From the NCBI GenBank assembly GCA_018725485.1, contig QLUP01000050.1, forward strand, positions 1-7,110: 7,110 bases of DNA, in the 5' to 3' direction. The DNA comes from Candidatus Lithacetigena glycinireducens (lineage in GTDB: Bacteria > Coprothermobacterota > HKB111). The translations under genes and the position numbers were made by a program. Position 1 is the stretch's first letter. Each line of letters begins with the position of its first letter. Under the pieces are notes generated by a model. The model made no database searches and was not told the DNA's origin. It was given only the letters and a program-made list of their open reading frames with translations. Positions 1 through 7,110 of the stretch are shown here, one piece after another.

Positions 1-332
1 GAACCCCTGATATAAAGAGGGGATGTAGTAAATTTTGAACCATTTCTCACCTTGCAACCACTTTCTATCCTGCAACCGCTACTTATCCTACTACCTCTAC
101 CTATCTTACAATAATCTCCTATCCAGCAATGGCTTCCCACCCAACAATTACCTCCTATCCAACAATAATCTCCTATCCAACAATTGCTTCCTATCCTGAA
201 ATCATTACCTATTCTGCAATTACTTCCTATCCTAATACTCCATTTTTCAAACTCCTCTTGCAATTCACTAATGTTAATATACTCAATCCATTTTTCATCT
301 CCCATAAAATAAATTTTCTTTATGCTTTTCAT
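1..332 (-). CDS. Hexapeptide-repeat (left-handed beta-helix) protein, 3'-truncated by the window edge
   Basis: The reading frame starts at ATG 332-330 and stays open to base 1 (110 codons visible), so the C-terminus is outside the window. The start overlaps the preceding stop as ATGA, and GGGGGT lies 5 bases upstream. Residues 1-33 are a non-repeat leader. Residues 34-99 form eleven consecutive hexads of the form x-[IV]-G-x-x-C, such as RIGSNC, WIGDYC, WIGGNC, WVGSHC. This is the signature of left-handed parallel beta-helix proteins, best known from acyltransferases. Eight of the eleven hexads have Cys at the small inward position, where the family usually has Ala, Ser, Thr or Val, and four consecutive hexads begin with Trp. 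The next residues, KFTTSPLYIRG, look like the end of the helix. The helix fold is well supported. Enzyme activity cannot be judged because no catalytic part is visible; a structural phage protein is equally possible. Confidence 0.85.
   Translation of the reverse strand, partial: MKSIKKIYFMGDEKWIEYINISELQEEFEKWSIRIGSNCRIGNDFRIGSNCWIGDYCWIGGNCWVGSHCWIGDYCKIGRGSRISSGCRIESGCKVRNGSKFTTSPLYIRG
36..233 (-). repeat. 18-bp tandem repeats encoding the hexapeptide helix
   Basis: Eleven degenerate 18-bp units, best conserved between about 105 and 200. They read on the plus strand as variants of CTATCCaacaatnnnntc and encode one beta-helix hexad each. The period is a multiple of three, so copies can be gained or lost without a frameshift. 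Confidence 0.7.
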
Positions 333-700
333 TTTATACCCCCTATATCTGGCAATGGGATAATCTTATCAAACTCAACCTCCTCGCTAGGTGGCAAATT
401 CCGTATCACATCTCTAAAACTTTCGCACTCATTGTATTGCTTAATGCATTTGTCAAGTTCAATCTTCTGCCCCCGTATTATGCCATCACCTGCTATGTTT
501 TTTGTCTGTAATACTTCAACTGCCTGCTTACAATCCTTCAACTCTCTGTTCAGTCGGGTGATATACATCTTTGTCTGACTAATAACAATTACTATCCCCA
601 GACAAATGGTAACGGCAAAAAGGATTTTGAAAAACTTATCCTCTGTCCGATGCCATCTTTCCCTTGTATTCCTCCAAAACCTTTTTAGTTTTCTACGCAT
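329..700 (-). CDS. Small single-pass membrane protein with cysteine-containing coiled coil
   Basis: A 123-aa protein. Residues 1-22 are strongly basic (RRKLKRFWRNTRERWHR). Residues 23-41 are a hydrophobic helix (FFKILFAVTICLGIVIVIS), so the basic end should stay in the cytoplasm and the rest face outward. Residues 44-100 are helical and charged, with Cys57, Cys85 and Cys92, and the end is Pro/Ile-rich. The start codon follows AGGAGGTGAAAG, an SD that includes the stop codon of the upstream gene, so the two are probably translationally coupled. The stop overlaps the next start as ATGA. A short N-terminal anchor with an external coiled coil is also the layout of phage inner-membrane spanins (Rz), but I see no holin or endolysin nearby and no sequence match that I recognise. 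Function is unknown. Confidence 0.8.
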   Translation of the reverse strand: MRRKLKRFWRNTRERWHRTEDKFFKILFAVTICLGIVIVISQTKMYITRLNRELKDCKQAVEVLQTKNIAGDGIIRGQKIELDKCIKQYNECESFRDVIRNLPPSEEVEFDKIIPLPDIGGIK

Positions 701-703
701 CTT

Positions 704-904
704 TCACCTCCCCCACCTTGCCTCAACTTCTTTTCTTAGATACTCTATGTTTTTCAACAACTCTTCCTTACCCTCTTCTCCATACGCCTGTAAATATTTT
801 TTTATAAGCGTGGGATACACTCCATACCTTACTTCTCCTTGCTTCACATAACTACTGTCACTTTCTACTACTACGGAAATAGCCATCAAAATTTCATCTT
901 TCAT
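704..904 (-). CDS. Hypothetical 66-aa protein following the coiled-coil array
   Basis: It starts at ATG 904-902, 11 bases inside the 3' end of the fifth coiled-coil paralog. Its SD, AAGGGAGGT, is encoded by that paralog's Ala-Arg-Glu-Val tail. The ATG sits at the same offset from the REVK codons as the starts of the array members, so it takes the position of a next copy. The protein is mixed and soluble, with a short hydrophobic start (ILMAISVVV) and a charged helical C-terminal half (KEELLKNIEYLRKEVEARW). No known family is recognised. It is probably expressed by coupled translation with its neighbours. Confidence 0.72.
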   Translation of the reverse strand: MKDEILMAISVVVESDSSYVKQGEVRYGVYPTLIKKYLQAYGEEGKEELLKNIEYLRKEVEARWGR

Positions 905-1577
905 TTTTTACCTCCCTTGCTAATTTTTCATCGCAACTTTCCTTCGGCATAGTCCATATAGAAAATACTGTATGCTTTACACCATTAAAATCCCCCGCAA
1001 AGACGGGGATAATCCAATCCTCTTTTTCATCTTTGGGAATAGTGATATAACCCCTCCAATCACAGTAGTGAGCCTTTGGACAAATTGGAATAAGGATGTC
1101 AAAAAGTTTTATGTCATACTCCGCCCCTACCTTCTCACACTCCGCTCTTGCCCTATTCCGCTCCGCCTTTGCTTTATTTCGCTCTGCCGCTATCTTATCC
1201 AATTCTGCCTCTGTTATGTTGTCCTTCTCATCTGCCATAAAATGCTTCTCCTCTGCTTTATCATATTCTGCCTCTGCTTTATCGTATTCCGCCTCCAACT
1301 CGTCAAGTTTTCTTTCACCTAACTCACTTATCTTATCCCTAATGCTTTTCACTTCCTCTAATGTGTAGTATCTACTCATCTTTTGCCTCCCTTCAGACTT
1401 CTCCCTTGTAGTATCAGTTAGAACTTTCTTAAATTCTGGTAATCCTCTCTTATGTTCTTTGATTGTTTTGCTACATCCATTCAAGATTGCGTGGAAGTGT
1501 GCAGGACAAAAATGCCTTTTCTCTTTATTATATCTCTCATAACAATAAATCCAACCACATTTTTTACACTTTTTCAT
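894..1577 (-). CDS. Coiled-coil paralog 5 with a fused Cys/His-rich N-terminal domain
   Basis: A 227-aa frame starting at ATG 1577-1575, one base after the stop of the 43-aa ORF, with SD AAGGAGG nine bases upstream. Residues 1-66 are absent from the other four paralogs. They contain Cys4, Cys7, Cys12, His22, Cys24, His27, His29 and Cys35, a pattern fit for a small zinc-binding domain. From Met67 the protein is a standard array member: MSRYYTLEEV and IRDKISELGER, about nine heptads (AEYDKAE type, Tyr/Ala core), then the shared C-terminal domain with CPKAHY, WIIPVFAGDF and SCDE. Met67 (1379-1377) has its own SD, GGGAGG, 7 bases away, so a 161-aa form may also be made, or this may be the only true start. 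The C-terminal domain is closest to paralog 4. Function is unknown. Confidence 0.8.
   Translation of the reverse strand: MKKCKKCGWIYCYERYNKEKRHFCPAHFHAILNGCSKTIKEHKRGLPEFKKVLTDTTREKSEGRQKMSRYYTLEEVKSIRDKISELGERKLDELEAEYDKAEAEYDKAEEKHFMADEKDNITEAELDKIAAERNKAKAERNRARAECEKVGAEYDIKLFDILIPICPKAHYCDWRGYITIPKDEKEDWIIPVFAGDFNGVKHTVFSIWTMPKESCDEKLAREVKNER
1377..1392 (-). promoter_or_regulatory. Internal ribosome binding site and start within paralog 5
   Basis: GGGAGGCAAAAGATG on the minus strand places a good SD 7 bases before the ATG that aligns with the starts of paralogs 2, 3 and 4 (MSRYYT versus MSKYYT, MSKCYT, MNKHYT). It decides between a 227-aa fusion and a 161-aa standard member, or allows both from one mRNA. 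Confidence 0.6.
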
Positions 1578-1578
1578 C

Positions 1579-1710
1579 TTATTGTGCCTCCTTTGCCCCA
1601 AATATTATTCTAATTAACTGCACATAATATTTTACTGCCTCTTTATCTGCCTTACTACCAAATATCTTAAACCACATATCTTTTAATTTATCTATGCTTT
1701 TCTGCATCAT
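1579..1710 (-). CDS. Small ORF (43 aa) inserted between paralogs 4 and 5
   Basis: A frame from ATG 1710-1708 to TAA 1581-1579, overlapping the 3' end of paralog 4 by 23 bases. Its SD, AAGGGAGGTGA, is encoded by that paralog's AREVK tail, and its ATG sits exactly where the next paralog would start. The product begins MMQKSIDKLKDMWFKIFG and ends IIFGAKEAQ. It is basic and amphipathic, with hydrophobic residues spaced as in helices (LKDMWFKIF, VKYYVQLIRIIF), so it may touch a membrane or a partner protein. The codons for AKEA carry the SD for the next gene, one base beyond the stop. The good SD and tight packing on both sides argue that it is real. No homolog is recognised. Confidence 0.62.
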   Translation of the reverse strand: MMQKSIDKLKDMWFKIFGSKADKEAVKYYVQLIRIIFGAKEAQ

Positions 1711-2245
1711 CTTTCACCTCCCTTGCTAATTTCTCATCGCAACTTCCTTTCGGCTTGGTCCATATAGAAAATGCTTTGTGCTTTACACCATTAAAATCCC
1801 CTGTAAATACTGGTATAATCCACTCCTCATCTTCACTTTTAGGAATAGCAAGATAACCTCTCCACTCAATATAATACGCCTCTGGACAAAGTGAGATAAG
1901 AATTTTAAAAAGTTTCGTATCATATTCCGCCATTGCATCATACAACTCATCCCTTGCCTTATTATACCTCGCCTCTGCCTCTTTCCACTCTTTCCTTGTC
2001 TTGTTCCAGTCCGCTATCTTATTCCACTCTGTTCTTGCCCCTTTCCACCTTACCCCCGCCTTATTCCACTCTACCCTTGCTTTACTCCACCCTGCCATTA
2101 CTTCATTCCACCCTACCCTTATCTTTTTCCACTCTTCCCTTGTCTTGTCCCACTCTTCCTCCAGTTGGGGGAAGGTTCTCTCCCCCAACTTGCTTATTTC
2201 ATCTCTAACATTTTTTACCTCTTTAAGCGTATAGCATTTACTCAT
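1688..2245 (-). CDS. Coiled-coil array paralog 4
   Basis: A 185-aa protein, the longest standard member. N-terminal motif: MSKCYTLKEV and VRDEISKLGER (residues 1-23). The middle, from about residue 30 to 112, has twelve repeats such as EEEWDKT, REEWKKI, RVEWNKA, with Trp at one core position and mostly Ala, Ile or Thr at the other. One repeat, ADWNKT, has six residues instead of seven, which shifts the phase. The C-terminal domain carries CPEAYY, GYLAIP, WIIPVFTGDF, FSIWTKP and SCDE. The tail runs on to DDAEKHR where the other copies end KDE, because the sequence diverges at the junction with the 43-aa ORF. It starts in an 8-base overlap with paralog 3, behind a perfect AAGGAGGTGA. Probably cytoplasmic and oligomeric; function is unknown. 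Confidence 0.85.
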   Translation of the reverse strand: MSKCYTLKEVKNVRDEISKLGERTFPQLEEEWDKTREEWKKIRVGWNEVMAGWSKARVEWNKAGVRWKGARTEWNKIADWNKTRKEWKEAEARYNKARDELYDAMAEYDTKLFKILISLCPEAYYIEWRGYLAIPKSEDEEWIIPVFTGDFNGVKHKAFSIWTKPKGSCDEKLAREVKDDAEKHR

Positions 2246-2744
2246 CTTTCACCTCCTTTGCTTCACTCCCATTACAACTGCTTCTCGGCATCTCCCAAAT
2301 AGAAAACGCTTTGTGTTCCATATCTTTGTAATCCCCTGTAAAAACAGGTATAATCCAATCCTCTTTTTCACTCTTGGGGAGTGCAAGATAACCATTCCAA
2401 TCACGATAATATGCCTCTGGACAGATTACAAGAAGAAGGGTAAAAAGTTTCATATCCCACTCCGCCCTTGCCTTGTTCCACTCCGCCACTGCCTTGTTCC
2501 ACTCCGCCACTGCCTTACTCCACTCTGCCTTATCCCGCTCTACCATTGACTGGGTGATAAGAACTTGGCTATGCAATTGATTACCCCACCTTACCCATAC
2601 TTTTTCCCACTCCACCCCTGCCTTATTCCACTTCACCCTTGCCCTATCCCGCTCCGCCTCCAACTCATCAAACTTCCTCTCTCCCAGCCTGCTTATTTCA
2701 TCTCTAATGCTTTTCACCTCTTCAAGTGTATAGTATTTACTCAT
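2238..2744 (-). CDS. Coiled-coil array paralog 3, with an insertion in the coil
   Basis: A 168-aa protein. The N-terminus (MSKYYTLEEVKSIRDEIS) is closest to paralog 5, while the C-terminus (FSIWEMPR, SCNGSEAKEVKDE) is nearly identical to paralog 1, so the gene looks mosaic. Heptads such as RVKWNKA and GVEWEKV are interrupted at about residues 54-69 by a non-heptad stretch (GNQLHSQVLITQSMV). They then resume as VAEWNKA, VAEWNKA, RAEWDMK. The last repeats are encoded by an exact 21-bp duplication. The C-terminal domain has the usual CPEAYY, WIIPVFTGDY and SC motifs. The SD, AAGGGAGGTGA, lies inside the tail of paralog 2 and the start overlaps its stop by 8 bases. Function is unknown. Confidence 0.85.
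   Translation of the reverse strand: MSKYYTLEEVKSIRDEISRLGERKFDELEAERDRARVKWNKAGVEWEKVWVRWGNQLHSQVLITQSMVERDKAEWSKAVAEWNKAVAEWNKARAEWDMKLFTLLLVICPEAYYRDWNGYLALPKSEKEDWIIPVFTGDYKDMEHKAFSIWEMPRSSCNGSEAKEVKDE
2243..2258 (-). promoter_or_regulatory. Perfect SD encoded in the conserved paralog tail (example at the 3/4 junction)
   Basis: The minus strand reads AAAGGAGGTGAAAGATGAG. The codons AAG GAG GTG for Lys-Glu-Val form the SD, ten bases complementary to the usual 16S rRNA 3' end, seven bases (counted from GGAGG) before the next ATG. Equivalent sites are at about 2748-2758 and 3167-3176. After copies 4 and 5 the same site serves the 43-aa and 66-aa ORFs. Confidence 0.85.
2471..2512 (-). repeat. 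Exact 21-bp tandem duplication in paralog 3
   Basis: A 21-bp unit at 2471-2491 is repeated without change at 2492-2512 and encodes one heptad (VAEWNKA) per copy. A similar pair, 19 of 21 identical, lies in paralog 5 at 1251-1271 and 1272-1292. Such repeats fit expansion and contraction of the coil by replication slippage. Confidence 0.85.
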
Positions 2745-3162
2745 CCTTCACCTCCCTTGCTTCATCCTCATCACAACTATTTTTCGGTATAGTCCAAATA
2801 GAAAATGCTGTATGTCTTACATCATTAAGACCCGCTGTATAATCCCCTGTAAATAAGGGAATAATCCACTCCCTTTTTTTATCTTTGGGAATAGCAAGAT
2901 AACCTTTCCAGTCACGATGATATGCCTCTGGACAGATTTGAGTAAGGAGAGTAAAAAGTTTTGCATCCCACTTCGCTTCTGCTTCCTTCCTCTCCGCCTT
3001 TGCCTTTTCTACCGTTATCTTATTTGACTCCGTTCTTGCCTTTCTCCACTCAGCCATTACCTCTTCCAACCTTACTTCTATTAAAGGAAAACTCCTTTCC
3101 CCTAACTGGCTTATCTTATCTCTAATTGCCCTTACCTCTTCAAGTGTGTAATGTTTATTCAT
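2737..3162 (-). CDS. Coiled-coil array paralog 2, the short form
   Basis: A 141-aa protein with the shortest coil. N-terminal motif: MNKHYTLEEV and IRDKISQLGER. The coil, about residues 29-66, begins EVRLEEV, MAEWRKA, RTESNKI and then slips phase (TVEKAKAERKEA) before EAKWDAK. The C-terminal domain (from about residue 67) has CPEAYH, GYLAIPK, WIIPLFTGDY, a short insertion (TAGLND), FSIWTIPK and SCDED. It starts in an 8-base overlap with paralog 1, behind AAAGGAGGTA encoded by the previous gene's AKEV codons. Its tail, EAREVKDE, supplies the SD of paralog 3. Function is unknown. Confidence 0.85.
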   Translation of the reverse strand: MNKHYTLEEVRAIRDKISQLGERSFPLIEVRLEEVMAEWRKARTESNKITVEKAKAERKEAEAKWDAKLFTLLTQICPEAYHRDWKGYLAIPKDKKREWIIPLFTGDYTAGLNDVRHTAFSIWTIPKNSCDEDEAREVKDE

Positions 3163-3652
3163 CCTTTACCTCCTTTGCTTCACTCCCATTACAACTATGT
3201 CTCGGCATCTCCCATATAGAGAATGCTGTGTGTTCCATACTTTTGTAATTCCCAGAAAACACAGGTATAATCCAAAGTTCATCTTCATCTTCGTTCTTTG
3301 GGATACCAAGATAACCGCTCTCACGGTAATGTGCCTCCGGACAAACTGAAGTAAGAATATCAAAGAGTTTTATATCCCACTCCGCCCCTGCCTTATTCAA
3401 CCTTACCTTTGCTTCATCCCACTCCGCTACCATCTTGTCCCACTCCGCCACTGCCTTACCCAACTCTGCCCTTGTCTCATACCATCCTTCCCCTGTCTTA
3501 TTCCTCTCTGCCATTGCCTTATCACACTCTACCTTTGCCTTATTATACTCTGCCTCTGCCCTATTCTGCTCCGCCTCCAGTGAAGGAAAATTTCTTTCAC
3601 CTAGTTTACTTATTTCGTCCCTTATTCTTCTTACTTCTTCAAGTGTCCTCAT
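3155..3652 (-). CDS. Coiled-coil array paralog 1, first of the array
   Basis: A 165-aa protein, first in transcription order, behind AAAGGAGGTGA. The start MRTLEEV lacks the three or four residues (SKYY type) found in the other copies. The coil, about residues 26-95, holds ten uninterrupted heptads, among them EAEYNKA, KVECDKA, VAEWDKM and GAEWDIK. Ala dominates one core position, while Trp, Tyr, Leu, Cys or Arg alternate at the other. The C-terminal domain has CPEAHY, GYLGIPK, WIIPVFSGNY, FSIWEMPR and SCNGSEAKEVKDE. One residue is missing in RESGYL compared with the RDWKGYL type of the other copies. It is separated from the upstream gene by 177 bases, so the array may have its own promoter there, though none is clear. 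Function is unknown. Confidence 0.85.
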   Translation of the reverse strand: MRTLEEVRRIRDEISKLGERNFPSLEAEQNRAEAEYNKAKVECDKAMAERNKTGEGWYETRAELGKAVAEWDKMVAEWDEAKVRLNKAGAEWDIKLFDILTSVCPEAHYRESGYLGIPKNEDEDELWIIPVFSGNYKSMEHTAFSIWEMPRHSCNGSEAKEVKDE

Positions 3653-3829
3653 TTCACCTCCTTTACCTAAAAACCCTTATAAAATCAAGGAAACCCCACC
3701 AGACGCACAAAAAGGCATCAAATTGCGGTTTTGTGAGTTTTCGGGTATCCTACCCTATGCTGACCCAAAACTCGTTAATTTAACCCCTCCAGACGCTTCT
3801 GGGTGGCATCTGGTAAAAACTCTCCAACC
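3653..3829. other. Gene-free spacer with direct repeats and hairpins
   Basis: No convincing gene lies here. A 15-base direct repeat (aacccc-a/t-ccagacgc) is at 3692-3706 and 3782-3796, one mismatch apart, each followed 7 or 8 bases later by ggcatc. Between them, 3735-3746 and 3763-3773 can pair as an 11-bp stem with one bulge (GAGTTTT-GGGT arms). A competing hairpin inside the loop is GGGTA/TACCC. A second stem at 3789-3796/3806-3813 has eight pairs including one G-T. No U-tract follows any stem, so none is a clear terminator. A TATAAG box lies near 3680 but has no good -35. The spacer marks the border between the replication-side genes and the paralog array. Confidence 0.55.
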
Positions 3830-4063
3830 CTATACCCTTATCCTTCCACATACCAGGCACTCCCCATCTGCCACCTCTTCTGCATGCGCCCCGCAGGTGC
3901 AATGCTCACCTGCCTCCAGCATCTCCCTAATGGTATCTCCCTGCTCTAACTCCTCGCTTCCACGCAATAGGGAGTTATCTATTGCTGGTCGCTCTGGTTG
4001 GAAACGCGGACCTGTTTCATATAATCCCATTACTCTGAAAACTTGTGCGGTTATGTCAAACAT
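3830..4063 (-). CDS. Small protein with a C-terminal zinc-knuckle-like motif
   Basis: A 77-aa protein starting in an 8-base overlap with the upstream gene, behind AAGGAGG seven bases from the ATG. Residues 1-50 are soluble and acidic (ELEQGDTIREMLEAGE). The C-terminus has Cys55, Cys57, His60, Cys69 and Cys72 (HCTCGAHAEE and ECLVCG), arranged like a compact zinc site. The end of its coding region has higher GC and more CpG-containing codons than its neighbours, so it may have a separate origin. It is the last gene of a coupled set that begins with the replication genes. No family is recognised. Confidence 0.75.
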   Translation of the reverse strand: MFDITAQVFRVMGLYETGPRFQPERPAIDNSLLRGSEELEQGDTIREMLEAGEHCTCGAHAEEVADGECLVCGRIRV

Positions 4064-4301
4064 TTGACACCTCCTTTTTATTTTTCTTGTTTTCTACTTC
4101 CTCGTCTTTTTTTACGAGGTTAGTGAGGTAGGTTATTTGTGGGCAGAGCTGAAAACAATCCCAGTGGCAGTCAAAGAAGCAACACTCAGAGAAAATACCT
4201 CTTTTGCATTTCTCACTCCTCTCCAAATTCTGCAAGCACTTCCCCCTCACCAAGTCGGGGCACTCCTTTTTTGCTTTCACTTGCAAGGTTTTCCTTGTCA
4301 T
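4056..4301 (-). CDS. Cysteine-rich small protein (81 aa)
   Basis: The start overlaps the upstream stop as ATGA, with SD AAGGAGG eight bases before the ATG. Eight cysteines lie between residues 14 and 53 (14, 22, 32, 40, 41, 45, 49, 53), plus His46, with spacing C-x7-C-x9-C-x7-CC-x3-C-x3-C-x3-C. The rest is basic, with a Lys/Glu-rich tail. The pattern suggests metal or iron-sulfur binding rather than disulfides, as no signal peptide is present. No known family is recognised. Confidence 0.75.
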   Translation of the reverse strand: MTRKTLQVKAKKECPDLVRGKCLQNLERSEKCKRGIFSECCFFDCHWDCFQLCPQITYLTNLVKKDEEVENKKNKKEVSNV

Positions 4302-4630
4302 ACGCTCCTCCTTATGTTTTTTTGTTCTTTCTCTCTCTCCTCTTTTATCTCCTTATGTGTCTTGACGCCTTCAATTTTTCTCGTAAGTTCATCAAGTTCC
4401 AGGTCCGAGTAGGGATACCTTGCCTCTAACTCTCCCTCTGATATACCTTCGTTCTGCAACCACTTCTGGTAAACGGAGTAGTGCAAATCGTCAAGGGGGT
4501 AGCCAGCGAGAGACATCACGGTTTTCCAAGTCTTAAATAGGGTCCATCTTATCCTCCCTATTCGCTGGATTAAATCGTAGGTGTATTTTGAGTCCATATT
4601 TCTACTTACTTCTCTTTCTTCTTTTTTCAT
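4298..4630 (-). CDS. Hypothetical 110-aa protein coupled to the helicase loader
   Basis: The start ATG overlaps the loader's stop as ATGA and follows AGGAGGGTAAAGCA, so it is probably translated in a coupled way. The protein is mainly helical and charged. Residues 14-45 (KYTYDLIQRIGRIRWTLFKT) are aromatic and basic, the middle contains HYSVYQKWLQNEGISEGEL, and the tail is Lys/Glu-rich. No signal peptide, membrane span or cysteine is seen. Its position just after the initiator and loader suggests an accessory role in replication or early gene control, but this is inference from place only. Confidence 0.75.
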   Translation of the reverse strand: MKKEEREVSRNMDSKYTYDLIQRIGRIRWTLFKTWKTVMSLAGYPLDDLHYSVYQKWLQNEGISEGELEARYPYSDLELDELTRKIEGVKTHKEIKEEREKEQKNIRRSV

Positions 4631-5181
4631 TGCTTTACCCTCCTGTCTTCTCCCCCTATTTTTACAACCTCAAAATTCCCTACTATCCGAGACGCTATTC
4701 TATCGCTTACTCTACCCATTATTTCGCTTATGCTGTAATTTGATGTTATCATTATTTTTTTTCTCTCCATTACTTCTACCAAGTCAAAAAAGTCATACAC
4801 CTTTTCAAAAACAAATTCAGTTAGTTTTTCAGTTCCGAAGTCATCAATGAAAAATGGCTTCTCACTATCAAGTAAGTCCCTTATTATCTCGTTATCATTA
4901 GCCACAATCCTTTCTCTTATCATATTTAGGAAGTCAATCATCCGATAAAACAAAATTCGCTCTGCTTTTCTTACCTCGTTGGCAACTGCACAGAGTAGAT
5001 GTGTTTTACCATACCCTGCCCTTCCCCAGAGGTATATGTTTATATCTTTTTTATTTAGGAAGTCCCCGCACTTCTCTACTGCTTCTTTGTTTTTGTTGTT
5101 AATAGTAAAGTTATTAAAGGTCTTATCAATGTGCTTGCCATACATAAAACTCTTGTTTCCAAAGTTAATTATATTTGTCAT
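4627..5181 (-). CDS. DnaC-like AAA+ replicative helicase loader
   Basis: A 184-aa ATPase of the DnaC/DnaI type. Such proteins bind the DnaB-family helicase and deliver it to origin DNA opened by the initiator. Walker A is GRAGYGKT at residues 53-60, Walker B is FFIDDFG at 110-116, sensor 1 is MITSN at 144-148, and SDRIASRI at 159-166 matches the arginine-finger region of this family. The start at 5181 was chosen over the upstream 5247 because GAGGGAGGT lies 5 bases before it and the product then begins at the conserved region. It overlaps the initiator gene by 17 bases. It is shorter than DnaC (about 245 aa): the N-terminal helicase-binding segment is reduced to about 45 residues, as in some phage loaders. 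Confidence 0.92.
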   Translation of the reverse strand: MTNIINFGNKSFMYGKHIDKTFNNFTINNKNKEAVEKCGDFLNKKDINIYLWGRAGYGKTHLLCAVANEVRKAERILFYRMIDFLNMIRERIVANDNEIIRDLLDSEKPFFIDDFGTEKLTEFVFEKVYDFFDLVEVMERKKIMITSNYSISEIMGRVSDRIASRIVGNFEVVKIGGEDRRVKQ

Positions 5182-6007
5182 ATTTACCTCCCTCCTCCTC
5201 GTTTGTAGAGAATTCATCTTCCCACTCTCCTCTATCGTATTTAGCATATTTGCTCGCCTCCTCTTTCATAGTTAGTTCATCCTCCCATCTCTTGTTATTA
5301 AGGTAAGTAGATGGGTGGGGTATGAATTGTCCTTTGTCTTTTCTCCACTCTACACTTTTTTTTGCTTTCTCAACTGCTGATATAATAGTGTTTGTTAATT
5401 CTTGTGATGGTTTTAGTTTATTCCATACCTTTATTGCATATGCTTTATTTACTTTTTTAGGGTATGTTTTCCAAAAAAGGTCAAAATCGCACATGTTTGT
5501 TTTTGTTTCTACTTCTGTTTCTACTTCTGTGTATACTTCTGTGTATACTTCTGTTTGCTCCGATAGGGTATCGGTAGGGTATTGATAGGGTATCGGTAGG
5601 GTATTGATAGGGTATCGGTAGGGTATTGATAGGGTATCGTAGTAGGTTAGATAGGGTATCAATAGGGTAGAATTATGTAGTTCTCCTAAATGATTGGCAA
5701 TTCCTTTGATTTGTGTTTCGCTGTATTTTGTAGTTAATTGGTATTTTAGCATATTTTTAACCCAGATTATATTATTTTCCTTATCATATCTTATGAAATC
5801 ATCTTTGACAAAGATGTTCATTATACTTTGAATATCCTTTTTTGCAAGTCCTGTCTCCTCTTGTATCAAGGACAAGGGCAAATAATATATTCCAGAGTAG
5901 TGGCTGTGGGGATTTGTTATAAGATACAGGAATAGTAATTTTTCTTGCACTGATAATTTTTTTACCTTCGGGTCAGTCCAGAAGGTATGATGTATTTGTT
6001 TGAACAT
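5165..6007 (-). CDS. Phage-type replication initiator (winged-helix, lambda-O/DnaD-like)
   Basis: A 280-aa protein. Residues 1-95 form a winged-helix type domain (FWTDPKVKKLSVQEKLLFLY, ending IIWVKNMLKYQ) like phage replisome organisers. Residues 112-148 are a low-complexity linker encoded by ten phased 11-bp DNA repeats (SIPYRYPINTLPIPYQYP). Residues 152-169 are TEVY/TEVE repeats encoded by 12-bp units. Residues 175-247 hold the common phage replication C-terminal motif: FDLFWKTYPKKVNKAYA, KVWNKLKP, GQFIPHPSTYLN and RWEDEL. It would bind the repeats, open the origin and pass the DNA to the downstream loader. SD AAGGGAGGT precedes the ATG, and the loader gene overlaps its 3' end. The closing stretch is acidic with KYDKYN-type repeats. 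The role is well supported; the exact family name is less certain. Confidence 0.9.
   Translation of the reverse strand: MFKQIHHTFWTDPKVKKLSVQEKLLFLYLITNPHSHYSGIYYLPLSLIQEETGLAKKDIQSIMNIFVKDDFIRYDKENNIIWVKNMLKYQLTTKYSETQIKGIANHLGELHNSTLLIPYLTYYDTLSIPYRYPINTLPIPYQYPTDTLSEQTEVYTEVYTEVETEVETKTNMCDFDLFWKTYPKKVNKAYAIKVWNKLKPSQELTNTIISAVEKAKKSVEWRKDKGQFIPHPSTYLNNKRWEDELTMKEEASKYAKYDRGEWEDEFSTNEEEGGKYDKYN
5511..5558 (-). repeat. 12-bp tandem repeats in the initiator linker
   Basis: Four consecutive 12-bp units of acttctgt plus four variable bases (tttct-type or gtat-type ends), encoding TEVY/TEVE. The period keeps the reading frame, unlike the neighbouring 11-bp array, so these may simply be a spacer in the protein. 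Confidence 0.8.
5565..5674 (-). repeat. Array of ten 11-bp iterons, candidate replication origin
   Basis: Ten units stand exactly 11 bases apart. Units 1-6 alternate agggtatcggt and agggtattgat, giving a 22-bp super-period. Units 7-10 are degenerate (agggtatcgta, gtaggttagat, agggtatcaat, agggtagaatt) but stay in register. Eleven is not a multiple of three, so the protein period is eleven residues (33 bp) and the conserved object is the DNA. Eleven bases is about one helical turn, so sites would face the same side of the helix. Iterons inside the initiator gene are known from lambda O and related phages. Confidence 0.85.
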
Positions 6008-6018
6008 ACCTACCTCCC

Positions 6019-6225
6019 TTATCCCTCCTCTTTTATTTTTATGCTTTCTGTCCCGTAGGGTATTGATAGGGTATCAATAGAGCATCGGTGTGGTATTGAT
6101 AAGGGGTTGATTTTACTTTCCTCTTTTTTTCTTTTCCACATTGGGATTTTGCATCTGGGACATTGCTTGGGGGATTTTACCCTTGTTTCCCACTCATATT
6201 TACAACTTCTGCATTTTGCAATCAT
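6019..6225 (-). CDS. Small zinc-ribbon protein 2, with an iteron-encoded tail
   Basis: A 68-aa protein with Cys5, Cys8, Cys22 and Cys25 (KCRSCKYEW and KQCPRCK), a compact zinc ribbon. It is a paralog of the protein at 6494-6673 (shared C-x2-C-x3-W, QCPRCK). Such proteins often bind nucleic acid or proteins. ATG 6225 was preferred over 6231 because AGGAGG is nine bases away rather than three; the longer form would add Met-Lys. From about residue 38 the tail (NPLSIPHRCSIDTLSIPYG) is encoded by five 11-bp repeats like those in the initiator gene, and is absent from the paralog. Its promoter is at 6261-6290. The stop lies just before the initiator's SD, so it leads the replication operon. Confidence 0.83.
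   Translation of the reverse strand: MIAKCRSCKYEWETRVKSPKQCPRCKIPMWKRKKEESKINPLSIPHRCSIDTLSIPYGTESIKIKEEG
6057..6111 (-). repeat. Second 11-bp iteron array, in the zinc-ribbon gene
   Basis: Five units at exact 11-base spacing: agggtattgat, agggtatcaat, agagcatcggt, gtggtattgat, aaggggttgat. The first two match or nearly match units of the main array about 490 bases away. They occupy the 3' end of an unrelated gene, which supports a DNA-level role. Confidence 0.8.
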
Positions 6226-6260
6226 TTTCATTTCCCTCCTTTTGTAGTAGTAGTATTAGT

Positions 6261-6507: not shown

Positions 6508-6673
6508 GTCCTTGTAATTTTTCCCTTTCCATTTGTGCTTTTTGCCATCGGTTATATTTTTCTTGTCTTTCTATTTCCCAGCATGTTGACTTACATCTGG
6601 GACATTGGACAGGGTTTTCTACAAGTGGTATCCAGACATATAGACACCTTAAACACTTTTTTGTTGTTTCCAT
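6494..6673 (-). CDS. Small zinc-ribbon protein 1
   Basis: A 59-aa protein with Cys7, Cys10, Cys24, Cys27 and Cys31 (KCLRCLYVW, QCPRCKSTC), a zinc ribbon, followed by a basic helical tail (EIERQEKYNRWQKAQME). It is a paralog of the protein at 6019-6225. The start at 6673 follows AAAGGAGGT by four bases. The longer frame to 6745 is rejected because it runs back through the promoter. Its own promoter is at 6704-6732, giving a leader of about 24 bases. It may act as a small regulator binding nucleic acid or host protein, but no target can be read from the sequence. Confidence 0.82.
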   Translation of the reverse strand: METTKKCLRCLYVWIPLVENPVQCPRCKSTCWEIERQEKYNRWQKAQMEREKLQGLDKG

Positions 6674-6703
6674 TATTACCTCCTTTAATAATCCTATATT
6701 AAC

Positions 6704-6732
6704 ATTATACCACAAAAAAAAGCATTTGTCAA
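6704..6732 (-). promoter_or_regulatory. Promoter of zinc-ribbon 1
   Basis: TTGACA (6732-6727) and TATAAT (6709-6704), both perfect, with a 17-base spacer containing eight T in a row. It lies in the duplicated promoter block, copy A, one base shorter than copy B. Confidence 0.9.
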
Positions 6733-6748
6733 TACCCCGTTGCATTTG

Positions 6749-6810
6749 GGGTAGGCACCAGACTAGGGCAAGGGTAGGGGATTTCTCCCCTCATTAGCCG
6801 GCGCCTACCC
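6749..6810 (-). other. Structured element A, foldable leader-like region
   Basis: On the minus strand GGGTAGGC (6810-6803) pairs with GCCTACCC (6756-6749) over eight bases. Inside is a 6-bp hairpin, AGGGGA-GAAA-TCCCCT (6791-6776), capped by a GNRA tetraloop. GGGTA of the closing stem can instead pair with TACCC next to the inner hairpin, and the distal TACCCC can pair with GGGGTA just upstream of the -35, so alternative folds exist. No U-tract follows. It occupies the same place as element B in its cassette, but the stem sequences differ. Its role is unknown; terminator-like, attenuator or protein-binding site are options. Confidence 0.45.
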
Positions 6811-6817
6811 GTTTTTG

Positions 6818-6836
6818 CAAGTTTCTATCTCCTAAT
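6818..6836 (-). promoter_or_regulatory. SD-TTG leader block, copy A
   Basis: Homolog of 6444-6462, beginning at the stop codon of the upstream gene. The TTG frame has seven codons and stops within GCCGGCTAA. The shared part is SD, AAAC, TTG and the GCCGGC palindrome (6797-6802), not a protein. Confidence 0.5.
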
Positions 6837-7110
6837 GTTTGACAAAATCATCGTCCAATGAAATAATATCATCCTCTGCGCTCTCACAGTCCTTAATTTT
6901 CAACCGCACCTTCCCATCTCTATCCTTTGCGTAGTAGAAGTATGCCTTTATCCTTCTGCCGATGGCTTCCTCGTCATCCCACTCTATCTTATTTTTTTGC
7001 ACTTCAACCCCGCCTACCGAAAGCAATAACTCTTTGCTCTCACCAGGAAAGAGCAAGACACGAATTTTCTTGCTTCCCTCTGGTTTAAGGGGTATCCAGA
7101 ATACCCATAT
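6832..7110 (-). CDS. Unrecognised acidic protein, 5'-truncated by the window edge
   Basis: Ninety-two codons are visible, in frame from base 7110 (IWVFWIPLKPEGSKK at the start of what is seen) to TAG 6834-6832. An in-window TTG at 7056 has no SD and the frame continues upstream without a stop, so the true start lies outside. The protein alternates short beta-like stretches (KKIRVLLFPG, ELLLSVGGVEV, RIKAYFYYAK, KVRLKIKD) and ends in an acidic tail (SAEDDIISLDDDFVKH). An acidic C-terminus is seen in single-strand DNA binding proteins, but the last residues do not match the usual DDDIPF type, so I make no assignment. It lies upstream of the regulatory cassettes and may belong to another transcription unit. 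Confidence 0.72.
   Translation of the reverse strand: MWVFWIPLKPEGSKKIRVLLFPGESKELLLSVGGVEVQKNKIEWDDEEAIGRRIKAYFYYAKDRDGKVRLKIKDCESAEDDIISLDDDFVKH

Follow-up and report, generated by a model that had tools for sequence, protein, structure and literature searches.

Five adjacent coil genes in a phage-like element

Five paralogous genes lie side by side on the minus strand at positions 894-3652 of the window, which is the whole 7,110-bp stretch of DNA analysed here and represents the complete contig C151 of a bacterial bin (1.24 Mb, 204 contigs, 83% complete). The sequence-only reading had proposed such an array, and its members are indeed present, with 55-60% pairwise identity, ~50 invariant columns, and intact reading frames and overlaps. 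In the direction of transcription, the window comprises (i) genes for a DnaD-like initiator and a DnaC-like loader; (ii) a 110-aa gene, an 81-aa Cys-rich gene, and a 77-aa gene; (iii) a leader of ~126 bp followed by the array; and (iv) a 66-aa ORF, a 123-aa gene, and a hexapeptide-repeat frame that leaves the contig (Table 1).

Table 1. Array copies and flanking features, with coordinates in the 7,110-bp window
Feature	Coordinates	Strand	Evidence or comment
Array copy 1, 165 aa, coil of 71 residues	3155..3652	-	ORF and paralog alignment
Array copy 2, 141 aa, coil of 41 residues; 8-bp overlap with copy 1	2737..3162	-	AlphaFold model, pLDDT 81.5
Array copy 3, 168 aa, coil of 72 residues; 8-bp overlap with copy 2	2238..2744	-	Coil nearly common to C79 copy 7174-7683
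Array copy 4, 185 aa, coil of 84 residues; 8-bp overlap with copy 3	1688..2245	-	
Array copy 5, 161 aa, coil of 64 residues; start codon ATG at 1379, preceded by a Shine-Dalgarno sequence	894..1379	-	
43-aa ORF between copies 4 and 5, unrelated to the family	1579..1710	-	Homolog in C175
Cys-rich, zinc-ribbon-like stretch (MKKCKKCGWIYC...) between copies 4 and 5	1380..1577	-	In frame with copy 5
123-aa gene, hydrophobic segment and coil-like tail (TM-coil)	329..700	-	One per element, 4/4 elements, downstream of array
Hexapeptide frame, I-G-x4 repeats (18-bp DNA repeats)	1..306	-	Leaves contig; resembles left-handed beta-helix proteins
Intergenic leader upstream of array	3654..3779	-	Related leaders before C175 and C132 arrays
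77-aa gene with Cys pairs	3830..4063	-	Conserved upstream neighbour
81-aa Cys-rich gene	4056..4301	-	Conserved upstream neighbour
DnaC-like helicase loader	4627..5247	-	phrog_50 E=7.6e-31
DnaD-like replication initiation protein	5165..6007	-	phrog_270 E=9.4e-29, phrog_1701 E=5.6e-27
Tandem repeats of 11 bp/22 bp (GATAGGGTATC-like)	5561..5669		Within replication initiation gene; possibly origin iterons

The reading frame of copy 5 stays open upstream as far as 1601, through the Cys-rich stretch, which is either fused to this copy or an overlapping gene in its own right. Successive genes of an array usually share 8 bp (ATGAGTAA or a close variant), and the typical final codons of a gene, GCA AAG GAG GTG AAA GAT GAG TAA (A-K-E-V-K-D-E-stop), include the Shine-Dalgarno sequence and the ATG of the following gene. 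The conserved C-terminal tail is therefore explicable at the nucleotide level. The C175 homolog of the 43-aa ORF (L010 2303-2437) encodes 44 aa; its middle is unrelated but its ends (MSKYY...AKEVKDE) are family-like, and the junctions may accordingly behave like cassette borders.

No 16S sequence was detected in the bin, and RecA was therefore taken for its placement; this protein shares 93% identity with its counterpart in Candidatus Psychracetigena formicireducens BS5B28, with the following matches at ≤60%. The phylum Candidatus Lithacetigenota, which includes Candidatus Psychracetigena, has been described from serpentinite springs (PMC9751293), and the habitat of the bacterium is hydrogen-rich alkaline springs; the main text of the paper naming the phylum makes no mention of a phage or virus (PMC9751293). 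Since phage-like contigs may be mis-binned, this bacterium is only the probable host of the element. The window contains no structural phage gene, and the phage-type genes on it and on its sister contigs are those for replication, amidoligase, and methylase. Because a search for one large-terminase family across the bin gave zero matches, "phage-like" is the upper limit of what the window element and its sisters may be called as far as the evidence goes.

Modular architecture of the family

Each protein opens with an N-terminal motif (consensus MSKYYTLEEVRxIRDEISxLGER), continues as a heptad coil, and closes with a C-terminal domain of ~75 residues that starts near DxKLF. The coils, estimated earlier at about 5 to 12 heptads, measure 5.9-12.0 heptads in the window. 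Their self-identity reaches its maximum of 0.36 at lag 7, as against 0.03-0.12 at lags 1-6, and the repeat is therefore not due to chance. The heptads are of the AEWDKAR type, with W, L, R, or Y at position a; K at c; A at d; R, K, or E at e; A at f; and E at g. Hydrophobic residues make up 80% of position a and 78% of position d, so that a 7-residue period, hydrophobic a and d positions, and helices in the structural model identify these regions as coiled coils. Heptad-repeat coiled-coil proteins in general share the same strict period and the hydrophobic a and d, whereas members of the window family carry Ala at f as well, frequently have Trp at a, and end in a C-terminal domain for which no relative was detected. 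As judged from its sequence, this heptad make-up would allow pairing between different members.

Among the 13 distinct coil lengths in the family, seven equal 1 mod 7 (simulated P about 0.007; this class was picked post hoc, for which the simulation accounts by using the largest class), and the length changes thus mostly keep the helical phase, by whole heptads. The N-terminal motif and C-terminal domain are common to all copies, as had been claimed. Two cysteines said to be invariant are so in five of the five window copies, whereas, of the 18 family members, one lacks the first and four lack the second.

Searches for relatives and structural comparisons

The family had been called unrecognised, and it remained without a match in every library tried. 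Profiles from Pfam, PHROGs, NCBIfam, and PADLOC gave weak coil-type or chance matches alone, none of them significant over the C-terminal domain, and the comparison with PDB sequences stayed at chance level. Further, no relatives were found in phage records, plasmid records, IMG/VR, GTDB contigs, or 385 other genomes, nor in IMG/VR scanned with the neighbour proteins, an absence that is not absolute because these scans depend on short conserved patterns and may omit records near the window. Membership of the C-terminal domain in a well-described family, which would have spoken against novelty, found no backing in the profile, phage, and metagenome searches. A match to G081 (E 7e-4) was rejected as a relative since it covers the coil only, and no homology to known anti-defence proteins was found. 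The protein family appears to be new; absence of homologs is common among fast-turnover accessory genes.

With the five window sequences as input, AlphaFold returned for copy 2 a model of three helices and then short strands (mean pLDDT 81.5, pTM 0.73). The C-terminal domain modelled alone was uncertain (pLDDT 71.8, pTM 0.54), with its other four models at 41-53. Foldseek searches of the full model against PDB and BFVD, and of the C-terminal domain against PDB, yielded no match below E 0.1. The top-ranked match of the full-length model was T4 Vs.4 (PDB 7uq2), a short helical chain with cyclic-nucleotide binding, of which the helices alone align (Foldseek E 1.6; VIA Z 4.9, rmsd 3.1, 73 residues); this is within the noise for helical bundles, many unrelated bundles score higher, and there is no sequence match. 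An SMI1/KNR4 chain (VIA Z 4.5, rmsd 3.7, 63 residues) was likewise dismissed as a fold match, being at noise level.

Copy number and gene order in sister elements

The neighbours of the array recur around it in three sister contigs of the same bin. Copy number in related elements, proposed earlier as a check, came to eight in C79 (12.7 kb; 4642-8471), with a separate copy at 11334-11798 and another severed by the contig end; to three in C175; and to one in C132. Tandem paralogs in numbers of 5, 8 (+1, +1 cut off), 3, and 1 on four related contigs thus constitute an amplified array. The view of the array as a set holds insofar as it recurs with differing copy number; the single-copy sister shows that a multi-copy set is not obligatory.

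On the plus strand of C79 (L009 8835-12568), the order is a COOH-NH2 ligase (8835-10277), an unassigned gene, the separate family copy, an R2K-type ATP-grasp gene (11810-12568), and then the severed copy; by eye, the unassigned gene is class II glutamine amidotransferase-like. N6/N4 methylases are present on C79 and C132, and C132 further carries a Lin1244-type replication protein and a sigma-70 region 2 fragment. Near its single array copy, C132 (L011 6499-7032, minus strand) also encodes a 177-aa protein with repeated GQSxSGD units.

The leader stands before the arrays of three elements and occurs a second time in two of them; the leader-like sequences, all on the minus strand, are located at L010 (C175) 163-285 and 3259-3389 and at L011 (C132) 3166-3303 and 6106-6226, with 163-285 and 3166-3303 as the further occurrences. 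One such sequence lies immediately upstream of the C132 gene 2459-3148, which is small terminase subunit-like by eye only, its profile matches being weak. This placement hints at a possible shared regulation of that gene and the array through the leader, in which a structured RNA was tested for and received no convincing support.

Evolutionary rates and probable exchange of modules

For cross-element family pairs with matching coils, dN/dS was 0.17-0.41, compared with 0.06-0.20 for the neighbours, ratios that are approximate given short genes and a dS often near saturation. These values indicate constrained proteins that change faster than their neighbours, rather than positive selection. Likeness is no higher among the copies of one element than across elements, either in the N-module (identity 0.764 within vs. 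0.746 between, p 0.11) or in the C-domain (0.714 vs. 0.736), and the variants therefore either arose before the elements split or pass from one element to another. Moreover, coil types recur in different elements. Window copy 2238 and C79 copy 7174 differ by a dS of 0.19 in the coil and of 0.87 in the C domain, and C79 8073 and C175 2854 share 94% protein identity in the coil and 90% in the C domain as against 57% in the N motif. Such uneven divergence of modules is probably best read as recombination within genes. A Mantel test, which covers the coil and C domain (the N-module part was dropped for poor alignments), gave r 0.34 between these two modules. The suggestion of a kept set of variants agrees with coil types common to several elements, a within-element likeness that is not higher, and dN/dS below 1. 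The repertoire thus seems to be old and shuffled, a real set that varies in size and mixes its parts.

Possible roles of the array

We tentatively favor, at a probability of about 0.38, an expandable phage accessory locus that encodes co-assembling proteins, each a rod with a small head, which bind or titrate factors of the host or of rival phages; such binding by the family proteins is what we infer. Recombination at the near-identical junctions and the 21-bp heptads would add, remove, and mix copies; assembly of the proteins through their coils would give mixed rods that differ in length; and the variable heads might bind or titrate host or rival-phage factors in infection. The array is located between the replication genes and the methylase region, and an accessory locus acting during infection fits its position after the replication genes, its varying copy number, its faster evolution, and its lack of homologs. 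A bolder version, which we consider rather improbable, is a recombination-driven protein repertoire in which the junctions would be cassette borders and the 21-bp heptads length adjusters, with one operon giving ever-new combinations of rod and head, as mixed oligomers, against changing host targets.

The same proteins might instead form a scaffold or ruler internal to the phage, i.e., hetero-oligomeric rods that bind no host factor and serve the element itself, such as its replisome or the 123-aa TM-coil protein. Coil lengths that change mostly by whole heptads, with the phase kept, agree with this, as do the replication genes and the TM-coil gene that flank every array where the contigs extend that far; a copy number from 1 to at least 8 and an evolution faster than that of the neighbours would nevertheless be odd for a core machine part, and we regard this alternative as unlikely, if a serious one. 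Doubtful, too, is amplification of an ancestral accessory protein mainly for its amount, with copies that drifted and a variety of lengths and heads that has no function. Here the junctions and 21-bp repeats would ease unequal recombination, and tandem amplification for dosage is on record for tifA, an anti-defence gene of phage T4 that undergoes segmental amplification under toxIN selection (PMC9391042). There, recombination at short homologies multiplies a small phage accessory gene in tandem (PMC9391042), as it probably does in our array. However, the tifA copies are fresh repeats under laboratory selection, whereas the array copies, at merely 55-60% identity, are unlike recent identical repeats, differ in coil length, and belong to distinct types that recur across elements. 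tifA is a precedent for the process and not evidence of kinship.

On C79, the separate family copy is flanked by genes known from phage COOH-NH2 ligase/ATP-grasp sets, and the family could in principle supply the substrates on which the amidoligase and ATP-grasp enzymes carry out peptide modification. Members of the coil family are not themselves such enzymes, though, the ligase and ATP-grasp genes are not seen in the window or in the fragments C175 and C132, and the start signals of the next gene, which overlap the conserved tail, already account for it, all of which makes this explanation very improbable. Least credible is an artefact of assembly or binning through collapsed or misjoined repeats, a caveat raised at the outset: despite the fragmentation of the bin, the copies are strongly diverged and have intact frames and overlaps, their dN/dS stays below 1, and the locus recurs among the same neighbours on three further contigs, on which grounds the artefact was rejected.

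The arrangement belongs to the already known tandemly amplified accessory genes, while its modular shuffling is unusual. Under the accessory-locus reading, the naturally occurring range of copy numbers, coil lengths, and module swaps would offer a direct way to ask how sets of accessory proteins are built up and varied in phages and which host factors they meet.

A ThiF/E1-like gene on a related contig

A further contig, C198, has DNA in common with window positions 6539-7110. On its plus strand (L100 3139-4811), a ThiF/E1-like gene (PF00899, E 1.4e-21) follows genes of 185 aa and 85 aa without Pfam matches, a gene set that could be a phage-borne ubiquitin-like conjugation operon.
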